Positions 7,459-58,510 of a stretch of 64,000 nucleotides of DNA are shown piece by piece. The stretch's first letter is position 1; each line of letters begins with the position of its first letter. A model generated the notes under the pieces. The model saw only the letters and a list, made by a program, of their open reading frames with translations, was not told the DNA's origin and searched no databases. The DNA is from Plastoroseomonas arctica (GTDB lineage Bacteria; Pseudomonadota; Alphaproteobacteria; Acetobacterales; Acetobacteraceae). The stretch is from contig NZ_JAAEDH010000011.1 in NCBI RefSeq assembly GCF_018128965.1, forward strand, positions 1 through 64,000, in the 5' to 3' direction. A program made the position numbers and the translations under genes.

Positions 7459-8178
7459 ATGTCCCTCGCGATGACCGGCAGCGCGGTTCGCCCCACGATC
7501 CTGATCGTGGAGGACGAGGCGCCGCTGCTGACCCTGATGCGCTACAACCTCGAGAAGCAGGGTTTCGCCGTCGAGGAAGCCACCGACGGGCAGGAAGCCC
7601 TCCTTCGCGTGTCCGAAGCCAGGCCGGACCTCATCCTGCTCGATTGGATGCTGCCGGCTATGTCGGGCCTGGAAGTATGCCGCCAGCTGCGCCGCCGGCC
7701 CAATACCCGCGACCTGCCGATCATCATGGTCACCGCGCGCACCGAGGACCAGGACACGGTCCGCGCGCTCGACACCGGCGCTGACGACTACATCGCCAAG
7801 CCCTTCGCGATGGAATCGCTGCTCGCGCGCATCCGCGCCCTGCTGCGCCGCTCCGGCGGCGTGCCGGAAAAGGGGACGCTGCGCTACAACGACCTTGCCA
7901 TGGACCAGGACGCCCACCGCGTCACACGCAACAGCCGCGCGCTGCACCTGGGGCCGACCGAATACCGGCTGCTGGAATTCTTCCTCCAGCACCCCGGGCG
8001 GGTGTTCACGCGCGAACAGGTGCTGGATGCGGTGTGGGGGCGCGACATCCATGTCGAGCCGCGCACGGTGGATGTGCACATCCGCCGACTGCGCAAGGCG
8101 ATCAATGCACCGGGTGAGGCAGACCTGATCCGTACGGTGCGGGCGGCGGGGTATGCACTGGATGCCGAGGGGACTTAA
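7459..8178 (+). CDS. phoB: Phosphate regulon response regulator PhoB
   Basis: PhoB is the DNA-binding response regulator that turns on phosphate-starvation genes. The 239-residue protein has a receiver domain with acidic residues E18-D19, phospho-acceptor D62 (LLDWMLP), T92 and K114, then an OmpR-type winged helix from about residue 137 ending RTVRAAGYALD. An N-terminal extension of about ten residues precedes the conserved TILIVEDE; a second ATG at codon 5 is possible. PhoR, its usual histidine kinase partner, is not in this window. An inverted-repeat element begins five bases after the stop. Confidence 0.95.
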   Translation: MSLAMTGSAVRPTILIVEDEAPLLTLMRYNLEKQGFAVEEATDGQEALLRVSEARPDLILLDWMLPAMSGLEVCRQLRRRPNTRDLPIIMVTARTEDQDTVRALDTGADDYIAKPFAMESLLARIRALLRRSGGVPEKGTLRYNDLAMDQDAHRVTRNSRALHLGPTEYRLLEFFLQHPGRVFTREQVLDAVWGRDIHVEPRTVDVHIRRLRKAINAPGEADLIRTVRAAGYALDAEGT

Positions 8179-8183
8179 AGCTT

Positions 8184-8339
8184 GGGGGAAATGAATTTCC
8201 CCCGAACCCGCATTCTTTCTTTTTTGGATTATTGGTGCGAGCTCGCAGCTCGCTCTGAGTTCGGCAAACAGGTGCTACCTCTCGGCCAGCACCAATAGAC
8301 CAAAACAAAAAAAAGCTCTGGGGGAATTTTTTCCCCCAG
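8184..8339. repeat. Long inverted-repeat intergenic element, copy A (full)
   Basis: The element fills the space between the convergent phoB and yajC genes. Its outer ends are hairpins: GGGGGAAAT-GA-ATTTCCCCC (8184-8203) and CTGGGGGAA-TTTT-TTCCCCCAG (8318-8339). Inside these, T-rich and A-rich arms lead to ATTGGTGC (8231-8238) and GCACCAAT (8289-8296), which are perfect complements around a 50-base centre. The same plan recurs at 63217-63373, and single arms occur at 20093-20148 and 24599-24650. Here it could end transcription from both sides, since the A/T-rich arms put T-runs next to stems. Confidence 0.8.
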
Positions 8340-8347
8340 CCTTGCTT

Positions 8348-8692
8348 CTACGCCGCCTTGCCGCTCTCATCATTGGCCGCCTGCGGCTTGATCACGCTGC
8401 CGATCGTCCCGCGTACCAGCAGCACGCGCACATTCGGCGCAATTTCGGCTTCGATCTCGTCCGAGCCTTCCTTCACCTTCGTGATGGTCGCCACGATCCC
8501 GCCCGCGGTGACCACCTTGTCGCCGCGCTTGAGCGCGGTGAGCATGGTGCGGTGCTCCTTCATCTTCTTCTGCTGCGGGCGGATCAGCAGGAAGTAGAAG
8601 ACGATGAAGATGAGGACCAGCGGTGCGAGCTGCGTCACCATCGCCATGGTCCCGCCGGCGGCGTCCTGGGCATAGGCGGGCGAAATCCACAT
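8348..8692 (-). CDS. yajC: Preprotein translocase subunit YajC
   Basis: YajC is a small inner-membrane accessory of the SecDF complex in protein export. The 114-residue protein has a short N-terminus, one hydrophobic helix (about residues 22-38, LAPLVLIFIVFYFLLI), and directly after it the signature RPQQKKMKEH. A conserved LKRGDKVVTAGGIVATI segment follows. The C-terminus ends in a short Lys/Ala tail. secD and secF, often downstream, are absent; repeat copy A and phoB follow instead. Confidence 0.95.
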   Translation of the reverse strand: MWISPAYAQDAAGGTMAMVTQLAPLVLIFIVFYFLLIRPQQKKMKEHRTMLTALKRGDKVVTAGGIVATITKVKEGSDEIEAEIAPNVRVLLVRGTIGSVIKPQAANDESGKAA

Positions 8693-8804
8693 GGCAGGTG
8701 ATCTCCGGCAGCGGCGGCGCGGCTTGCGCGGGCCGTGAATTGGGGCTGAAAGCTCGGGCGCAACCTACCCACGCCCTCTTGCGCGTCAACCGGATAAACT
8801 GGCC

Positions 8805-9665
8805 ATGGACGAAACCATCCTCCCTGCCCTGCTGCGCATCGCCGAGGCGCTGGAGCGCCTGGTGCCGCCGCAGGCCGCCGCACCCGATCTCGACGTCGCC
8901 GACGCTTATGTCTGGCACCCTGCCCCCGTGCCCCATCTCGCCCCGGTGCCGCGCGTGTCCGCAGTGCCGCTCGCTCTGCTACAGGGCGTGGAGCGTCAGT
9001 CGATGCTGGTGCTCGAAAACACGCTGCGGTTCGCGCAGGGGCTTCCCGCGAACAACGCCATGCTTTGGGGTGCGCGCGGCATGGGGAAATCCTCGCTGGT
9101 GAAGGCCGCCCATGGCGAGGCGAATGCGCGCCACCCGCATGCGCTGGTGCTGATCGAGATCCATCGCGAGGATATCCGCACCCTGCCGGAGCTGCTGAAC
9201 ATCCTGCGCGCCACCACGCGCCGCTGCCTGATATTCTGCGACGACCTGTCGTTCGAGCGCGAGGACCAGGACTACAAGGCGCTGAAATCGGTGCTCGATG
9301 GCGGGATCGAGGGGCGGCCGTCGAACACGCTGTTCTACGCCACCTCGAACCGCCGCCACCTGATGCCGCGGGACATGATCGAGAATGAGCGCAGCACCGC
9401 GATTAACCCCGGCGAGGCGGTGGAGGAGAAGGTCTCGCTGTCGGACCGATTCGGCCTGTGGATCGGCTTCCACAATTGCGATCAGCCGACCTATTTCGCG
9501 ATGGTCGAGGCCTATGCCGCGGCCTACGCGCTGCCGATCACGCCCGAGGAGCTGCGCGCCGCGGCGGTGGAATGGAGCGTGACGCGCGGCGGACGATCCG
9601 GGCGCGTGGCGTGGCAGTGCATCCAGGACCTGGCGGGACGGCTCGGCACCCCGATCCCGGCGTGA
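8805..9665 (+). CDS. DUF815 family AAA-type ATPase
   Basis: This 286-residue protein matches DUF815, a family of P-loop ATPases of unknown substrate found in many proteobacteria. Walker A is GARGMGKSS (89-97) and Walker B is LIFCDDLSFE (142-151). A conserved stretch around ATSNRRHLMPR resembles the sensor region of AAA proteins, and SLSDRFGLWIGF is a family hallmark. The gene is divergent from yajC. Its stop codon overlaps the GTG start of the next gene (GTGA), so the two are probably co-translated. Confidence 0.88.
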   Translation: MDETILPALLRIAEALERLVPPQAAAPDLDVADAYVWHPAPVPHLAPVPRVSAVPLALLQGVERQSMLVLENTLRFAQGLPANNAMLWGARGMGKSSLVKAAHGEANARHPHALVLIEIHREDIRTLPELLNILRATTRRCLIFCDDLSFEREDQDYKALKSVLDGGIEGRPSNTLFYATSNRRHLMPRDMIENERSTAINPGEAVEEKVSLSDRFGLWIGFHNCDQPTYFAMVEAYAAAYALPITPEELRAAAVEWSVTRGGRSGRVAWQCIQDLAGRLGTPIPA

Positions 9666-10609
9666 GGGCGTCGGCGCGCCGGGACGCCTCCGGCCGGTTC
9701 CTGAACCCCGATGGCAGCAATGGCGGCAAGACGCTTGGCGACATCTGGCGCCTTCAAAAGCATGAGGGTGTCGGCTGGCCGGCGGTGGTCGCGCCACCGC
9801 AGGTGACATCCCTGCCCGCGGTGCCGCCGGGCCATGCCGGCCTCACCCATATCGGGCACGCGACGACGCTGATCCAGATCGCCGGCGGTCCTACCCTGCT
9901 GATCGACCCGATCTGGAGCGAGCGGTGCAGCCCGGTCGGCTGGTTCGGGCCGAAGCGAGTGCGGCCCGCGGCGCTGGATTTCGACGCGTTGCCGCCGCTC
10001 GACGCGATCCTCGTCACCCACAACCACTACGATCATTGCGACCTGCCGACACTGCGGCGCCTGGCCGCCCGCGCGCGGGTTCCGGTCATCACCGGCCTGG
10101 GCAATGCAGGGCTGATCGCGCCCACCGGGCTGGCGCCGGTCACCGAGTTGGATTGGTGGGGCGAGCATGTCCTCGCCGATGGCACGCGCCTGACCTACAC
10201 CCCGACGCAGCATGGCTCGGCGCGCGGGCCCTTCGACCGCTGCAGGGCGTTGTGGGGAGGGTTCTGCATCGAGGCGCACGGCGGTCGCATCTTGGCGACC
10301 GGCGACACCGCCTGGGGGCCGCATCTCGCCGAGATCGGCGCGGAGCTCGGTCCCTTCGACGCGGCGCTGATTCCGATCGGCGCCTATGACCCGGAATGGT
10401 TCATGGGCAGCGTCCACATCACGCCGGAGCAGGCGGTGGTCGCCCACCACGCGCTGCGGGCGCGGGTGTCGCTGGCGATGCATTGGGGCGTGTTCCGCCT
10501 GTCTGGCGAGGCCATCAACGAACCACCGGCCCGCCTGCGCGAGGCACGAGGAGAGGCGGATTTCCGCGTGCCGGATTTCGGCGAGACGATGATGGTGCGG
10601 CTCGGTTGA
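9662..10609 (+). CDS. Metallo-beta-lactamase fold hydrolase (NAPE-PLD/RomA-like)
   Basis: This 315-residue protein has the zinc-binding HNHYDH motif at residues 120-125 and a later GDTAWG metal-ligand segment, so it is a metallo-beta-lactamase-fold hydrolase. GHATTLIQIAGGPTLLIDP and GWFGPKRVRP place it near the RomA / N-acyl-phosphatidylethanolamine phospholipase D branch; its true substrate is unknown. The reading frame is open much further upstream, but that part overlaps the DUF815 gene. The GTG at 9662, overlapping the preceding TGA, is the sensible start. It converges with serS and ends 12 bases from it. Confidence 0.85.
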   Translation: MRASARRDASGRFLNPDGSNGGKTLGDIWRLQKHEGVGWPAVVAPPQVTSLPAVPPGHAGLTHIGHATTLIQIAGGPTLLIDPIWSERCSPVGWFGPKRVRPAALDFDALPPLDAILVTHNHYDHCDLPTLRRLAARARVPVITGLGNAGLIAPTGLAPVTELDWWGEHVLADGTRLTYTPTQHGSARGPFDRCRALWGGFCIEAHGGRILATGDTAWGPHLAEIGAELGPFDAALIPIGAYDPEWFMGSVHITPEQAVVAHHALRARVSLAMHWGVFRLSGEAINEPPARLREARGEADFRVPDFGETMMVRLG

Positions 10610-10621
10610 CGGCCCGCGGCC

Positions 10622-11890
10622 CTACCCGCGCGCGATCCGCTCCAGCCCGCCCATGTAGGGCCGTAGCGCGGGCGGCACGGCGACCCCGCCATCGGCGTCC
10701 TGATGCGTCTCCAGCACCGCGATCAGCGCCCGGCCAACGGCGACGCCCGAGCCGTTGAGCGTGTGCACCAGCACGTTGTCCTTGCCGATCTTAACGCGCG
10801 CCTTCATCCGCCGCGCCTGGAAATCCCGGCAGTTCGAGCAGGATGAAATCTCGCGCCAAGCCTGCTGCCCCGGGAGCCAGACTTCCAAATCGTAGGTGCG
10901 CGCCGCGGAGAAGCCGGTGTCGCCGGCGCACAGGAACACCCGCCGCCAGGTGAGGCCGAGTTCCGTTAGCACGCGTTCCGCGCAGGCCGTCATGCGCTCG
11001 TGCTCGGCGTCGGACGCGTCGGGGGCGACGATCGAGACCAACTCCACCTTGGTGAACTGGTGCTGCCGCAGCATCCCGCGCGTGTCGCGCCCGGCGCTGC
11101 CGGCCTCGGAGCGGAAGCTCGGCGTCAGCGCGGTCGCGCGGATGGGCAGGTCGGCGGGCCCGAGGATGGTGTCGCGGACGAGGTTCGTGAGCGGCACCTC
11201 GGCGGTGGGGATCAGGTAGCGGCCATCGGTGGTGGCGAACAGGTCCTCCGCGAATTTCGGCAGCTGGCCGGTACCGTACATGGTGGCGTCGTTCACCAGC
11301 AGCGGCACGACGTGCTCGGTATAGCCGTGCTCGCCCGTGTGCAGGTCGAGCATCCATTGCCCGAGAGCGCGTTCGAGTCGCGCCAGCACGCCTTTCAGCA
11401 CCACGAAGCGCGAACCCGCGATCTTTGCGGCGCCGGCGAAATCCATCAGTCCAAGCGCCTCGCCGATCTCGAAATGCTCGCGCGCGACGAAATTGAACCG
11501 CGCCGGTTCCCCATGGGTGTAGAGGACGACGTTGTCACTCTCGTCGCGGCCTTCAGGGACTTCGGCATCAAGGATGTTGGGGAGCAGAGACATTAGCGAC
11601 GTCAAGCGGCCTTCGGCTACCTTTGCGCTATGCTCCAATGCGACTTGCGTGTCCTTAAATGAACGAGACTGCGCCTCGAGCAGAGCGGTATCTTCGCCCG
11701 CCTTGCGCATTTGTCCAATCAGCTTCGCTTGCTGGTTGGCATGCTCTTGCTGCGACTGCGCTTCGCCAATGTTGCGACGTCGAACGTCGTCAACTTCTAG
11801 CAAATCGTTGCTTTGCGCCGGCTGCCCCCGACGCGCCATCGCGCGGTCGAACGCGTCAGGATCAGCGCGGATCGCGCGGATATCGTGCAT
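10622..11890 (-). CDS. serS: Seryl-tRNA synthetase
   Basis: SerS charges tRNA-Ser with serine. The 422-residue class II synthetase has an N-terminal helical arm (about residues 1-105) and a catalytic core with motif 2 in [15 protein letters not shown] and motif 3 in [29 protein letters not shown] is also conserved. The length is normal. The arm region (about 11575-11830) uses visibly more A/T-ending codons (AAT, TTG, CAA, TCT) than the core or neighbouring genes, and its sequence diverges from the usual alphaproteobacterial arm. This hints at a mosaic gene. It is the last gene of the long minus-strand cluster, 62 bases after tatC. Confidence 0.95.
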
Positions 11891-11952
11891 TTTCTCTCAC
11901 TCGCTCAAAGCGCAAGAGGCTCCGCCTCACGCGCACCCCGTCGACGAAGAGA

Positions 11953-12735
11953 CTACTCCTCGTCCTTCTTCTTCTTCGTCATCCAGGTCGCGACCAGGAT
12001 CGAGATCTCATACAAAAGGATCAGCGGCACGGCCAAGCCCACCTGGCTGATGATGTCCGGCGGCGTCAGAATCGCCGCCGCGACGAACATGCCCACGATC
12101 GCGTAGCGGCGGCCCTTCTTCAGGCTCTCCACGCTGAGGATGTTCACCTTCACCAGCAGCGTCAGCAACACCGGCAGTTGGAACGCGACCCCGAAGGCCA
12201 GGATCATGTGCATCACCAGGGACAGATATTCGCTGACCTTGGCTTCCAGCTGAATCGGCAGCACGCCCTCGCTCGCCGGCGTCTCGAAGGTGATGAAGAA
12301 CTTCCAGGCGAGCGGGAAGATGAAGTAGTAGGCGAGTGCGGCGCCCATCACGAACAGGAAGGGCGAGGCCACCAGGAACGGCGCGATCGCCCGTTTCTCG
12401 CTCCGGTACAGCCCCGGTGCGACGAACAGCCACAGCTGCGTCGCCCAGATCGGGAAGCTGAAGAAGGTCGCGCCGAAGAAGGCCACCTTGAGATAAGTGA
12501 AGAACGCCTCGTACAGCGCGGTGAAGATCATCCGCCGCTCGCCGCCCTGCTGCATCAGGATGTCGGCCAGCGGGCGCGCCAGGAAGCCGTAGATGGCGGT
12601 CGAGAAGTAGTAGCACACCGCAAACGCCAGCCCGAAGGCGATCACCGACCACAGCAGCCGCGTGCGCAGCTCCATGAGGTGCTCTATCAACGGCATCGGC
12701 TTGTCGTCGATCGGATCGTCCTGCACGGTGGACAA
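11953..12735 (-). CDS. tatC: Twin-arginine translocase subunit TatC
   Basis: TatC is the polytopic inner-membrane receptor for folded proteins with twin-arginine signals. The 260-residue protein has six hydrophobic segments, the N-terminal HLMELRTRLLWS motif, the FTALYEAFFTYLKVAFF region and a lysine-rich acidic tail. The start is read as TTG at 12735, nine bases after AAGGA; a GTG three codons later is an alternative. It lies 12 bases after tatB. Several proteins in this window (PstS, DUF1194, the 49021 hydrolase, the 60168 binding protein) carry twin-arginine-like signals that this system could export. Confidence 0.95.
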   Translation of the reverse strand: MSTVQDDPIDDKPMPLIEHLMELRTRLLWSVIAFGLAFAVCYYFSTAIYGFLARPLADILMQQGGERRMIFTALYEAFFTYLKVAFFGATFFSFPIWATQLWLFVAPGLYRSEKRAIAPFLVASPFLFVMGAALAYYFIFPLAWKFFITFETPASEGVLPIQLEAKVSEYLSLVMHMILAFGVAFQLPVLLTLLVKVNILSVESLKKGRRYAIVGMFVAAAILTPPDIISQVGLAVPLILLYEISILVATWMTKKKKDEE

Positions 12736-12747
12736 GTGGCCCCGTCC

Positions 12748-13209
12748 TTACGCTGAATGTGGGCCAGGCGGCGGCGAGGCCCCCGGCGGGATGAAGGCGG
12801 GCGCCACCTGGGGCTCAGGCGGCGCGGGCGGCTCCCATGGCGCCGGCGGCGGCGGGATGAAGGCCGGCGCCTCGCCGGTGGGTGCGGGCGGGGGCGGCGT
12901 CCAGCTCGGCGGAGAGGGCTTCATCGGATCCGAAAAACTGTCGCGCAGCGTGCCGTCGCCATCCACCGCCTTGGTGAACTGGCCCTTGATGTCAAAACTG
13001 CGGATCTCGTTGATGGTGTTGCGCACGTCGTCGAGCTTCGCCTCGCGCACCAGCTCATCGGCCTGCTGCTGGAACTGCCCGGCCATGCGGCGCAGCTTTT
13101 GGATGCCCTGCGCGATCCCGCGGATCGCCGTGGGCAGATCCTTGGGGCCGATGACAAGCAATGCCACCACGGCGATCAGCGCGATTTCGGACCAGGCGAG
13201 GTCGAACAT
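12748..13209 (-). CDS. tatB: Twin-arginine translocase subunit TatB
   Basis: TatB is a single-pass membrane protein that works with TatC in recognising Tat substrates. The 153-residue protein has the membrane helix at residues 5-20 with the conserved glutamate E8, the hinge GPKDLP (21-26), an amphipathic helix, and a long Pro/Ala-rich tail containing AFIPPPPAPWEPP repeats. The ATG at 13209 is preceded by AGGGAG and places the helix at the N-terminus; a longer frame to 13245 would add residues in front of it. tatA does not precede it: an ABC ATPase gene does, 39 bases away. Confidence 0.92.
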   Translation of the reverse strand: MFDLAWSEIALIAVVALLVIGPKDLPTAIRGIAQGIQKLRRMAGQFQQQADELVREAKLDDVRNTINEIRSFDIKGQFTKAVDGDGTLRDSFSDPMKPSPPSWTPPPPAPTGEAPAFIPPPPAPWEPPAPPEPQVAPAFIPPGASPPPGPHSA

Positions 13210-13248
13210 GGGCTCCCTTTCGCCCCCAGATTCAGGGCGCCGCACCCG

Positions 13249-14328
13249 TTAGCAGGAAGCCGCGCCATCGCCTAGTTGGGGAGCCTCGGGCGGAAATACG
13301 AAGGCCCGCGACGTGTCGACCGTGACAGAAACGCGCTCGCCGCGCGCGAGGCCCGGGCCGGGCGGCATCCGCGCATGCACGTGCAGCAACCCGCCTGCGC
13401 CATCGGGCAGCGCCATGTGCACCAGCGTGGTCGCACCCAGCAGGCGGGAGGCCTCGACCTCGGCGACGGCGCCGCCGGCCTCCGGCCCCGCGACGCGGAC
13501 GCCTTCGGGGCGGATGAGCACCTCCACCGCGGCACCCTCGGGCAAGCCTGGGGCCGATACGCGGCACAGCGCGGTCACCGCCTCGCCCGCCACCACCCGC
13601 GCAGGCAGGCGGTTCACCTCGCCCAGGAAGATCGCGACGAAACGGTCCACGGGCTTGAGGTACAGCGCGTCGGGTGCGCCCACCTGCACGATACGTCCCT
13701 CCCGCATCAGCGCGATGCGGTCGCCCATGAACATCGCCTCCTCGGCGTCATGCGTGACGAGCAGCGAGGCGATTCCGGCCTCCTGCAGCACATGCAGCGT
13801 GTCGTCGCGCACCTGTTCGCGCAGCCGCGCATCGAGGCTCGCGAAGGCCTCGTCGAGCAGCAGCAGCTGCGGGCGCGGGGCGAGCGCGCGGGCGAGTGCG
13901 ACGCGCTGCTGCTGCCCGCCGGAGAGCATGTGCGGGAAGGCGTTGGAGAAGCTTTCCAGCCCGACGCGGGCGAGCGCATCCATCACTCGCCACACCCTCT
14001 CCCCCTTGGGCGAGAAGCGCAGGCCGAAGGCGACGTTCTCGGCCACGCTCAGATGCGGGAACAGCGCATAGTCCTGGAAGACGAAGCCCACATTGCGCCG
14101 CTCGGGCGGCACCTCGCGCCCGCCCTCGGCCATCACGGCGCCACCGATTTCCAGGCGCCCGCGCTGGACGCTCTCCAGCCCCGCGGCGAGACGCAGCAGC
14201 GTGGTCTTGCCGCATCCGGAGGGACCGAGCAGGCACAGGATCTCGCCCGGTGCGACGTCGAGGTCGATGCCGCGCAGGACGGACTTGGCACCGTAGGCGT
14301 GGTGGATATCCGCGAAGCCGAGGCTCAC
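13249..14328 (-). CDS. ABC transporter ATP-binding protein (Fe3+/PotA-type)
   Basis: This 359-residue ATPase has Walker A GPSGCGKTT (35-43), Q-loop FVFQDYALFPHL, signature LSGGQQQR (135-142), Walker B LLLLDEAF (155-162) and a switch histidine in VTHDAEEAM. A C-terminal domain of about 110 residues resembles the TOBE regulatory domain of FbpC/PotA-type importers. Walker B has Ala where DEP is usual. No permease or binding protein is adjacent, so it is an orphan or works with distant genes. The GTG start overlaps the scpB stop (GTGA). It occupies the place where tatA is normally found before tatB, and the frame continues upstream only as overlap with scpB. Confidence 0.88.
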   Translation of the reverse strand: MSLGFADIHHAYGAKSVLRGIDLDVAPGEILCLLGPSGCGKTTLLRLAAGLESVQRGRLEIGGAVMAEGGREVPPERRNVGFVFQDYALFPHLSVAENVAFGLRFSPKGERVWRVMDALARVGLESFSNAFPHMLSGGQQQRVALARALAPRPQLLLLDEAFASLDARLREQVRDDTLHVLQEAGIASLLVTHDAEEAMFMGDRIALMREGRIVQVGAPDALYLKPVDRFVAIFLGEVNRLPARVVAGEAVTALCRVSAPGLPEGAAVEVLIRPEGVRVAGPEAGGAVAEVEASRLLGATTLVHMALPDGAGGLLHVHARMPPGPGLARGERVSVTVDTSRAFVFPPEAPQLGDGAASC

Positions 14329-54734: not shown

Positions 54735-55402
54735 GAGCGGAACAGCCTCGTGTATTGCGTCTCGTGACGCATGGAAAACAGGTCGATCATCGGCGATGCG
54801 GTGCCCAGATCGTCGAGATCGGCCGCCAGCGCGGCCTCGGTCGCGGCGGTGATGGCGGGCAGCAGGCCCGCCGTCACGCGCTGCCCATCGGTCTGACCGA
54901 GCGGCACCAGCCGCACGCCGGCGGAGGTGAGGTTGGCGGCAAACGCTGTAAGATAGGCGAAGACCGCGTCGCGCGGTGGAATGGCGGCGAAGCGGCAGGC
55001 GGCGCCGAAGGCGGACGCATGCGCCAGCCGCTTGGGATGGCGCGCGCAGAATGCGGCGAAGCCTGCGTCCGGCCAGGCGGCCATCGTGACCAGCGCGAAG
55101 GCGTTGCCCTGCGCCGTGCTCTCCAGCGCCGTCTCGGCGGTGCCGCGCCAGGCGAAGGCGAGTTCGGCAATGGCGTCGAGAGCGGCGTCATCCACAGCGG
55201 CGATCGCAGCGGCGCAGAGCGCACCATCAATGTGGCCGGCGCCGTCGTGCAGCACGGTGCGGATGTAGGCGGCGAGCGTCGCGGCGTCGCACACCGCGCC
55301 ATCCTCGACCGCCGCCTCGATGCCGTGGCTGTAGGTATATGCGCCGACCGGATAGGCGGGCGAGGTCCAGGCGAGCAGGCGCGCGAAATCCTCAGTGGTC
55401 AT
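54731..55402 (-). CDS. ureF: Urease accessory protein UreF
   Basis: UreF bridges UreD and UreG in the nickel-insertion complex. The 223-residue helical protein has [27 protein letters not shown] near the N-terminus, the family hallmark, and ends [14 protein letters not shown], also typical. The ATG at 55402 overlaps the ureE end by 11 bases; a frame to 55462 would add a Met/Thr-rich stretch translated from the His-tail codons of ureE. Confidence 0.94.
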
Positions 55403-55904
55403 GGTGGTGGTGATGGCCGTCGCCATGATCATGCGAGTGGCCATGGCCCTTGTGCTCGCCATAGGCGCCGCCTTCGGGATGGAAGGGCGCCTGAACCGCT
55501 TCGACGGTCGCGCCCAGGCCGCGCAGCATGGCGGTGATGACGTGGTCCTCGCGGATCAGGATGCGGCTGCCTTCGATCTGCGTCGGCAGATGCCGGTTGC
55601 CCAGGTGCCAGGCGAGCCGCATCAGCAGTTCCGGTGTGGCCGCGGTGATCTGCGTGAGCGGTTCGGGCGCCGCGCGCACCAGGATGACGCCGCCGCCTTC
55701 GAGCAGCAGGCCGTCGCCATCGCGCAGTGCCACCGCCTCATCGAGATCAAGAAGAAATTCGGTGCCGTTCGCGCCGGTGTAGCGACGGCGGCGACGGAAC
55801 CGCTCGTCGAAGTCGAGCGTGACGGTGTCGCGCGCGGTCCGTGCCACCCAGTCGCCGGCGGGCAGGACGCGGGTCGCGCGGGGCAGAAATTCTTTGGCGC
55901 CCAT
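55392..55904 (-). CDS. ureE: Urease accessory protein UreE (nickel chaperone)
   Basis: UreE binds nickel and hands it to UreG. The 170-residue protein has the UreE N-terminal domain (DTVTLDFDERFRRRRRY, DLDEAVALRDGDGLLLEGG), the metal-binding domain with AWHLGNRHLPTQIE and EDHVITAMLRGLG, and a His-rich tail with 12 histidines in its last 30 residues. The ATG at 55904 lies one base after the stop of the AT-rich foreign gene; a GTG at 55922 inside that gene is less likely. Its own upstream region appears to have been displaced by the insertion. Confidence 0.92.
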   Translation of the reverse strand: MGAKEFLPRATRVLPAGDWVARTARDTVTLDFDERFRRRRRYTGANGTEFLLDLDEAVALRDGDGLLLEGGGVILVRAAPEPLTQITAATPELLMRLAWHLGNRHLPTQIEGSRILIREDHVITAMLRGLGATVEAVQAPFHPEGGAYGEHKGHGHSHDHGDGHHHHHDH

Positions 55905-55905
55905 T

Positions 55906-56787
55906 TTACCCAACTTTTTCACTATACGCCGCTTGCACTAATTCCCTAAGTTGATCGAGTTTTTCTGGTTTGCCGTCTACGTCAGCAGGCCTGATCAAAA
56001 ATCGATAATTTTTGAACCAATTGTCATAAGGCAATGTATCGAACCCTGTCGATTCAACCCAGGAGTCGTATTGCTGTATTTGCGGTAAAGCCACTTGAAA
56101 TTCCAAAGATTTTTTCTTTGGCTTGAATAGCACAAAGTTATTTGCAATTTTATTTATTGTAATACCGACATAGTGTTTAGTATAATTTAGCTCGCATTTA
56201 CTATCTATTTTCCGTATTATGTTTGCATGAATTTGTTTCATTATTCCAATGATCTCAAGAGGATAATTTTTCTCCCATTTGGTTGGGTCAATAGTTGCCT
56301 GCTGAAGATCTTCTTCGTCCAGCGGGGCTCTAATATTTTCGTCTAGCACCTTTGTGAAAACCACGGTAACTGCATCTTTAACCTTTATAGCTTGGACCTG
56401 CATAGCGATAAGTGGAATATGTCCGTTGAACAGACTAATTACGTTCAAGAATCTAGCATTTATCTCCTCAGCAATTATAACTGCACAGTGGTCATATTGA
56501 GGATATCTTTTTTTTTCGATATTCCAATACTCAATGGTTCGAACAATATGAGTTTCGTCAACGGCTCCTAACTGAAGTTCAACTTCATATCGCCGACGAC
56601 CCTCAGAATCTGCAAGAAGTAAGTCTAACCGACCGGCTCTTGGTTGGCGTCTCTCTTTCGAAAGGAGTTCAACATCCCCCAAACCCAAGACGGAAGGATC
56701 ATTTGCAATAATTCCTTGCAACCATTTCTCAGTATATTTTGCATCAATTTTCATTCGTATAGGCTCTAAGCGAACGTAATCAGACAT
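55906..56787 (-). CDS. AT-rich PD-(D/E)XK nuclease-like gene inserted in the urease operon
   Basis: This 293-residue protein has no relation to urease. Its codons are strongly A/T-rich, unlike every neighbour, which points to recent horizontal transfer. Residues about 15-110 look like a PD-(D/E)XK nuclease core: KYTEKWLQGIIANDPSVLGL, then RAGRLDLLLAD (Asp) and RYEVELQLGAVDETH (Glu-x-Glu/Gln), then TIEYWNIEKKRYPQYDHCAVIIAEEI. The classical lysine is not obvious, so activity is uncertain. The C-terminal half is of unknown fold. It starts ten bases after ureC with GAGGG upstream and ends one base before ureE. Defence against foreign DNA is one guess; no partner gene is present. Confidence 0.75.
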   Translation of the reverse strand: MSDYVRLEPIRMKIDAKYTEKWLQGIIANDPSVLGLGDVELLSKERRQPRAGRLDLLLADSEGRRRYEVELQLGAVDETHIVRTIEYWNIEKKRYPQYDHCAVIIAEEINARFLNVISLFNGHIPLIAMQVQAIKVKDAVTVVFTKVLDENIRAPLDEEDLQQATIDPTKWEKNYPLEIIGIMKQIHANIIRKIDSKCELNYTKHYVGITINKIANNFVLFKPKKKSLEFQVALPQIQQYDSWVESTGFDTLPYDNWFKNYRFLIRPADVDGKPEKLDQLRELVQAAYSEKVG

Positions 56788-56797
56788 TTGCGGTCCC

Positions 56798-58509
<1,712 letters not shown>

Positions 58510-58510
<1 letters not shown>

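Follow-up and report, generated by a model that had tools for sequence, protein, structure and literature searches.

Nucleases of the PD-(D/E)XK superfamily have as the third active-site residue a lysine or, in some restriction enzymes such as BglII and BamHI, a substitute such as glutamine or glutamate, and BglII, which carries E-x-Q, is an active enzyme. Two of the candidates modelled in PADLOC are relevant here: PDC-S18, a single-gene phage defence candidate that we treat as a predicted defence family, and PDC-S11. In the literature that we searched PDC-S11 is named in two papers, and no naming of PDC-S18 or of DUF5655 was found. The nuclease of NucS occupies the C-terminal portion of that protein (PMC8228993). 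Here we describe a gene that lies as an insertion inside a urease operon and encodes a predicted NucS-like nuclease domain followed by a C-terminal DUF5655/YjbR-like domain.

The gene is an AT-rich open reading frame (ORF) of 293 aa on the minus strand (55906–56787) of the window, by which we mean the whole 64-kb stretch of Plastoroseomonas arctica DNA that was analysed. It is intact, with an ATG start, a TAA stop at 55906–55908 and an open frame free of stops. Its upstream neighbour is ureC (urease alpha, 56798–58510, minus strand) and its downstream neighbour is ureE (55392–55904, minus strand); UreE, UreC, UreB and UreA were identified in the window by Pfam, whereas the labels ureF, ureG and ureD come from sequence and position, with no Pfam basis. 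From the end of ureC at 56798, a 10-base spacer (gggaccgcaa; 56788–56797, minus strand) leads to the inserted ORF, and together with the GA of the ureC TGA stop it gives GAGGG; on the other side the single base 55905 separates the stop from the ureE ATG at 55904. The seat is thus the one described in an earlier note on this DNA, ten bases past ureC behind a GAGGG and one base before the ureE ATG. The sharply lower GC content claimed in that note was equally apparent: GC and GC3 are 0.39 and 0.345 in the inserted ORF, against 0.658 and 0.884 in ureC and 0.69 and 0.818 in ureE, and 55751–56950 is the single segment of the window in which GC, measured over spans of 400 bases, falls below 52%. Both direct neighbours are urease genes, with no second foreign gene and no methylase, antitoxin or restriction–modification (R–M) partner adjoining the ORF in the window. 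Three promoter-like sites (shuffle mean 1.2, s.d. 1.3) and two terminator-like sites (shuffle mean 2.3) were counted. Because the ORF runs in the sense of the urease operon, it is probably transcribed with urease.

Comparison of the ureC–ureE junction in relatives indicated how the operon looks when the gene is absent. A UreE search of genomes from the same family as the source gave matches in 45 of 80 genomes and yielded 30 loci, one of which was the window's own; among the other 29, 24 also include ureC and 5 have no ureC in the available stretch. In 22 of these 24 relatives, ureE follows ureC directly, with an extrapolated gap of −28 to +101 bases, and in the remaining two (L099 and L101) another ORF of about 1.0 and 0.7 kb (GC 0.70 and 0.61, respectively) intervenes, which differs from the inserted ORF as judged by eye on the translations. 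None of the 24 carries the inserted ORF at this position, and the different ORFs in L099 and L101 indicate that the junction tolerates insertions. After the ureC TGA comes the spacer GGGACCGCAA, which is similar to those found ahead of ureE in relatives such as L091, so that the inserted stretch is close to a bare coding sequence, and from this resemblance the 10-base spacer with its GAGGG is probably the former ribosome-binding region of ureE. Within the 300-base flanks of the ORF, neither direct nor inverted repeats scored above shuffles (n = 100; direct, 13.0 against a shuffle maximum of 15.6; inverted, 11.5 against 15.9). The junctions in relatives and the flanks thus agree with a clean insertion without visible target duplication, as the earlier note had described, and the inserted ORF is an insertion, foreign in composition.

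Relatives of the protein are rare near its host. A protein search of 60 relatives, a set that partly overlaps the genomes searched for UreE, recovered the copy in the window itself and two further matches, one of 35% spanning residues 19–210 in one genome (G019), on a contig other than the one with its ureE, and one that is marginal (E = 5e-4). When the 289 genomes of the class were searched with an 80-row profile of the homologues described below, a single genome, the source itself, passed at E = 1e-20. A genome of the same genus (G001) was set aside as an empty-site reference, as its ureE, on contig C146, is partial and is not preceded by ureC within the stretch read. That stretch (L129; C146, 1–3000) contains ureD-like frames with apparent frame changes and, within about 1 kb, the partial ureE, with no ureABC seen, an arrangement that may reflect loss or an assembly error.

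The inserted protein had no match in Pfam, NCBIfam or PDB sequences at the thresholds used, its only PHROG match was at E = 0.17, and in PADLOC it gave a weak match to PDC-S11 (E = 0.011, residues 7–64) and none to PDC-S18. A PDB sequence search likewise returned nothing meaningful, either with the protein or with a profile (A1). An AlphaFold2 model was obtained with a mean pLDDT of 90.2 and a pTM of 0.57, the latter leaving the relative placement of the two domains uncertain. The closest fold to residues 16–141 of the model was that of EndoMS/NucS (5gke_A and 2vld_A; Z 13.5, rmsd 2.2 over 112 residues), and the Foldseek TM-scores to EndoMS were low (0.31 and 0.37), with one domain aligned. 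The alpha-beta-beta-beta-alpha-beta core of the PD-(D/E)XK superfamily is present in the model, and no homing endonuclease was among the fold-search matches listed. The PD-(D/E)XK core that the earlier note had seen in the N-terminal half is accordingly supported by the predicted fold, at Z 13.5, and the structure prediction that the note called for points to a nuclease-like protein rather than an unrelated one. For residues 166–293 the matches were DUF1801/YdhG (2oc6, Z 10.0; 3h9x, Z 9.0), yjbR (2fki, Z 7.9) and T4 MotA (1kaf, Z 7.1), of which the YjbR and MotA values, below a Z of about 8, may reflect only a common arrangement.

The predicted active site is strongly conserved. Residues E20, D55, E68 and E70 are identical in all 80 aligned rows, and position 72, which replaces the catalytic lysine, is glutamine in 78 rows and methionine in 2. 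The motif GGRIDTLG...VIIEYKR of a PDC-S18 protein encoded at one homologue locus (L061) aligns both with HGIVDVMG...VVLELKR of Pyrococcus abyssi NucS (2vld; a weak match, E = 0.54) and with AGRLDLLL...YEVELQLG of the inserted protein, and through this alignment D55 and E70 are likely to be the active-site acidic residues, with Q72 in the place of the lysine. D55 and E70 form an acidic pair on adjacent strands, as in PD-(D/E)XK enzymes. The N-terminal nuclease part (residues 1–150; 56338–56787, minus strand) thus carries E20, D55 and E70-x-Q72 together with the invariant residues E68, H80, R83, Y87 and E91, and is followed by the C-terminal domain (residues ~166–293; 55909–56292, minus strand), with a DUF1801/YjbR/T4 MotA-C-like fold, which diverges fast.

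When 84,980 species genomes were scanned with a pattern, 109 loci encoding relatives came to light, and the best 80 of the 109, which are 40–50% identical to the inserted protein in the best segment, were kept. They form a compact family, mostly of 285–297 aa, with 33 invariant columns over the 80 rows, and none of the libraries searched has a curated model dedicated to it. When the rows were scanned singly, matches at E = 0.05 or better were found to DUF5655 in 45 of 80 (best 5.5e-8), to a PDC-S18 model in 41 (best 4.9e-13), to a PDC-S11 model in 31 (best 3.1e-7) and to NucS_C in 8 (best 0.0015). The two halves have changed at different speeds: the inserted protein has a mean identity to the other 79 rows of 62.2% over residues 1–150 and of 25.5% over residues 151–293, and the other rows among themselves (every third sampled) of 69.0% and 42.5%, respectively. 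A conserved cutter joined to a fast second half could fit a target-recognition part engaged in an arms race, the alternative being relaxed constraint. The other 79 rows show conservation of at least 90% at 81 columns; of these, the inserted protein keeps 70, the proposed catalytic ones included, and differs at 11, of which 6 lie beyond residue 150; these changes, together with a long branch (below), make a change or loss of function possible.

The homologues span 21 phylum-level groups, among them Patescibacteria, Bacteroidota, Bacillota, Planctomycetota, Pseudomonadota and an archaeon, as read from record titles, and bins can be contaminated. In a tree built by a quick method, phyla cluster but are split, with 6 changes for Pseudomonadota and 5 for Bacteroidota. 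The inserted sequence falls within a set of 15 rows (SH-aLRT 97), 10 of them from Pseudomonadota, on an end branch of length 1.27 that leaves its exact place unsure. In the tree its best match reaches 49% identity, which leaves it without a known close donor. In 50 of 80 loci the homologue has a GC content more than 0.03 below that of its flanks, and in 2 a higher one. Thirteen plasmid records had a match, 2 of them covering 80% or more of the query; one, from Priestia megaterium, covers 98% and is annotated as a hypothetical protein. On sequence, carriage by phages was considered and set aside: no match was found in 50,697 phage records, and in a pattern scan of IMG/VR three stretches fitted a pattern, none of which was confirmed; by fold, however, a phage protein is similar (Gp54 of Bacillus phage G, below). 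In the reading that we favour, the family moves from one distant lineage to another as a single gene.

The genomic contexts of the homologues were then compared, as the earlier note had proposed. None of the 80 homologue loci (stretches of 3.1 to 20.9 kb) encodes any of the seven urease proteins sought, so the constant association with urease operons that the note had named as decisive against its reading is not seen, and several homologues lie in R–M operons. On clustering of neighbours, a group of methylase or type I–IIG ORFs flanks 21 loci and an HsdR-like group 13, by labels of ours that agree with Pfam. Among 111 adjacent ORFs, the top 25 of 114 Pfam families included N6_Mtase (5), Eco57I (4), HsdM_N (3) and HSDR_N_2 (3), and also ribonucleotide reductase (2), gyrase A (1), transhydrogenase (1) and hydantoinase B (1). 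In a seed search R–M genes made up 12 of 119 genes within 300 bases, 7 of 184 at 0.3–2 kb, 9 of 193 at 2–4 kb and 12 of 476 at 4–10 kb, an enrichment in the nearest bin that is an upper bound, because the seeds were partly picked from near neighbours; by this screen, an R–M gene occurs within 5 kb in only 19 of 80 loci. In ten loci (L008, L018, L022, L027, L035, L037, L044, L047, L056 and L059), an R–M gene lies 11–72 bases away on the same strand.

Other kinds of neighbourhood were also seen. In a Candidatus Binatia genome (L009), the homologue lies between the genes hyuB and hyuA, 120 bases after hyuB and 7 before the hyuA ATG. Nine relatives with a closely similar or related hyuB locus were found and seven read: none has the homologue there, and the hyuB–hyuA gap is 2 bases in six and longer in the seventh, which is more distant. 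The stretch between hyuB and the homologue (L009, 9875–9994) contains, inside a mini-ORF, what by eye appears to be a second, diverged copy of the hyuB 3′ end, possibly a scar left by the insertion. The homologue of Moraxella lacunata (L050) follows gyrA and its terminator, and since the two near Moraxella relatives read carry other DNA after gyrA, the exact edges of the insertion are not set. Across the homologue loci the sites differ widely, with no shared boundary motif by eye. In two Patescibacteria loci (L031, 10865–11614; L037, 4482–5231), similar genes of 250 aa lie 6 and 17 bases past the family gene; they are probably the two PDDEXK_1 matches among the adjacent ORFs and possibly a recurrent partner. 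At L061 (9013–10867), a full PDC-S18 protein (E = 9.3e-148) is encoded in tandem with the family member, 28 bases upstream of it.

Some settings resemble integron cassettes. A total of 81 flank pairs were screened for attC-like sites against 200 shuffles each (lowest possible p, 0.005): 11 were at p = 0.05 or less, where about 4 are expected by chance, and 4 (L040, L053, L062 and L077) at p = 0.005. L040, L062 and L077 are convincingly integron-cassette-like, and L053 was left out, its upstream box having 3 mismatches in 8. In Fusibacter ferrireducens (L062), a matching GTTAGAC box precedes the homologue and an imperfect hairpin of about 120 bases follows it; the hairpin starts with GTCTAAC and ends with GTTATAC, the R'' and R' boxes of the textbook attC layout, and, folded as DNA, it has a z of −4.70, with none of 200 shuffles as good. 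In a Cytophagales metagenome-assembled genome (MAG; L077), a tyrosine recombinase (8136–9335) precedes, on the same strand, three attC-like repeats: those at 9795 and 10886 have about 170 bases each, and the third, at 13583, is shorter. The homologue lies exactly between the first two. The single-strand fold of 150 bases from one of the repeats is not exceptional, with a z of −1.25. The whole of L077 from 8136 to 13700 is an integron-like array in a Bacteroidota MAG, with a recombinase that has an N-terminal extension of about 110 aa. The integron integrase model TIGR02249 had matches in 14 of 14 homologue genomes, none over the cut-off of 265, and the same was true of all 14 controls; in the genome of L062 the matches were all under the cut-off, as in controls, and in L077 the two pieces of the match, of 140.7 and 90.1 bits, fall by their coordinates on the recombinase directly upstream of the homologue and its repeats.

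Four further loci (L020, L032, L038 and L043) resemble cassettes by eye, L020 and L043 also by flank repeat, and failed the attC screen. Flank repeats scored above shuffles in 8 of 81 pairs; those of L014 and L060 are inverted, and those of L050 and L070 were rejected as cassette ends, being a terminator and tRNA genes by sequence. For the copy in the urease operon, an integron cassette was also rejected, as there is no attC candidate in its flanks and a single base lies between its stop and the ureE ATG. The suggestion in the earlier note that the gene travels as cargo therefore holds for the family, through the three integron-cassette-like loci, several R–M operons and some plasmids, and is not supported for this copy, which has no attC beside it.

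We suggest, with somewhat better than even confidence, that the inserted gene arrived recently and encodes a DNA nuclease that works as a single protein, most likely as a restriction factor in anti-phage or anti-plasmid defence. It was acquired horizontally and encodes a predicted, probably functional nuclease of a widespread family, and its distance in base composition from the genome indicates that it is probably young at this site. Defence is the most likely role given the R–M neighbours, the candidate-defence relatives, the patchiness and the fast second half; the single-gene defence element suggested in the earlier note is in part supported, its defence activity being inferred. In the mechanism we propose, the NucS-like domain, with its predicted acidic site intact (E20, D55 and E70-x-Q72), would cleave DNA, and the C-terminal domain would recognise foreign DNA by some trait, be it sequence, base modification or structure, and direct the conserved nuclease domain to it. 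Because no methylase or antitoxin lies beside the gene, self-protection should come from a reader that ignores host DNA, by analogy perhaps as in modification-dependent (type IV-like) enzymes. For its expression the gene would take over the old ribosome-binding region of ureE.

Other readings of the same evidence have to be set against this one. The nearest fold to the nuclease domain is EndoMS/NucS and NucS_C is matched, at E = 0.05 or better, by 8 of 80 members, both of which would suit a NucS-type mismatch or damage repair nuclease that moved horizontally and benefits its host without acting in defence; however, its domain order and second domain are unlike those of NucS, and the patchy presence, R–M neighbours and fast-diverging second half speak against repair, which we consider improbable. 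About as improbable, in our view, is a passenger in decay, a defence-type nuclease that has lost its function since arriving here: the long branch of 1.27 and the 11 changed columns of the 81 near-invariant ones argue for it, but the open frame, the GAGGG before the start, the retained putative catalytic residues and the compact fit in the operon argue against, as does a base composition so far from that of the genome that the gene is probably young here.

A selfish, homing-like nuclease, one that enters operon junctions with the help of its own cutting and does nothing for the host, would explain lone insertions at different sites (ureC–ureE, hyuB–hyuA and after gyrA in Moraxella) and also the urease genes as direct neighbours, with no other foreign gene beside the ORF. 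Yet the sites vary widely, no boundary motif is shared by eye, and R–M pairing and integron-like cassettes offer other vehicles, so that we give this reading little credence. Position and sense inside the urease operon would be expected of an accessory gene linked to urease, but that role was rejected as extremely unlikely: no homologue locus encodes a urease protein (0 of 80), and the relatives with both ureC and ureE have either no insert (22 of 24) or a different ORF (2 of 24).

A bolder form of the preferred reading, a restriction factor acquired as one gene, can be put forward tentatively and is doubtful as a whole. The protein would be a self-contained restriction enzyme in which a constant NucS-like cutter is joined to a rapidly changing YjbR/MotA-C-like reader of phage DNA modification or structure, and it would spread across phyla singly, through integron-like cassettes and near-scarless insertion between the genes of metabolic operons, whose promoters it would use. 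A compact one-gene nuclease that combines a conserved cutter with a variable second domain would suit tests of self/non-self discrimination without a methylase. That two unrelated metabolic operons each carry a clean insertion suggests that defence islands are not the only home of candidate defence genes, which can lie in places where neighbourhood-based discovery does not look, and it raises the question of how single genes are placed so precisely.

Among predicted structures of viral proteins, the best match to the inserted protein was Gp54 of Bacillus phage G, a protein without a listed function and of nearly the same length (296 versus 293 aa; 283 columns, E = 4.6e-13), and the two differ in sequence (14% identity) and as whole chains (rmsd 16.3, TM-score 0.38). 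The C-terminal half is predicted to share the fold of DUF5655, YjbR, DUF1801 and the C-terminal domain of T4 MotA, at 6–14% identity to the matched structures, and is here fused to a nuclease. Similarity of the inserted protein and its family to PDC-S11 is weak and mostly confined to the first half. PDC-S18 is built alike by profile, with a nuclease-like first half and a DUF5655-like second half, whereas the PDC-S18 protein of L061 is 16% identical to the inserted protein, which has Q and not K in the active site; the inserted protein matches neither the PDC-S18 nor the PDC-S11 profile over most of its length, and relatives match them in part. With EndoMS/NucS it shares the nuclease fold, the active-site D and E aligning through the PDC-S18 protein of L061. 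The order seen in those enzymes, a NucS N-terminal domain and then the nuclease, is not the order found here: in the inserted protein the predicted nuclease comes first, followed by a DUF5655/YjbR-like partner, and E-x-Q replaces E-x-K.
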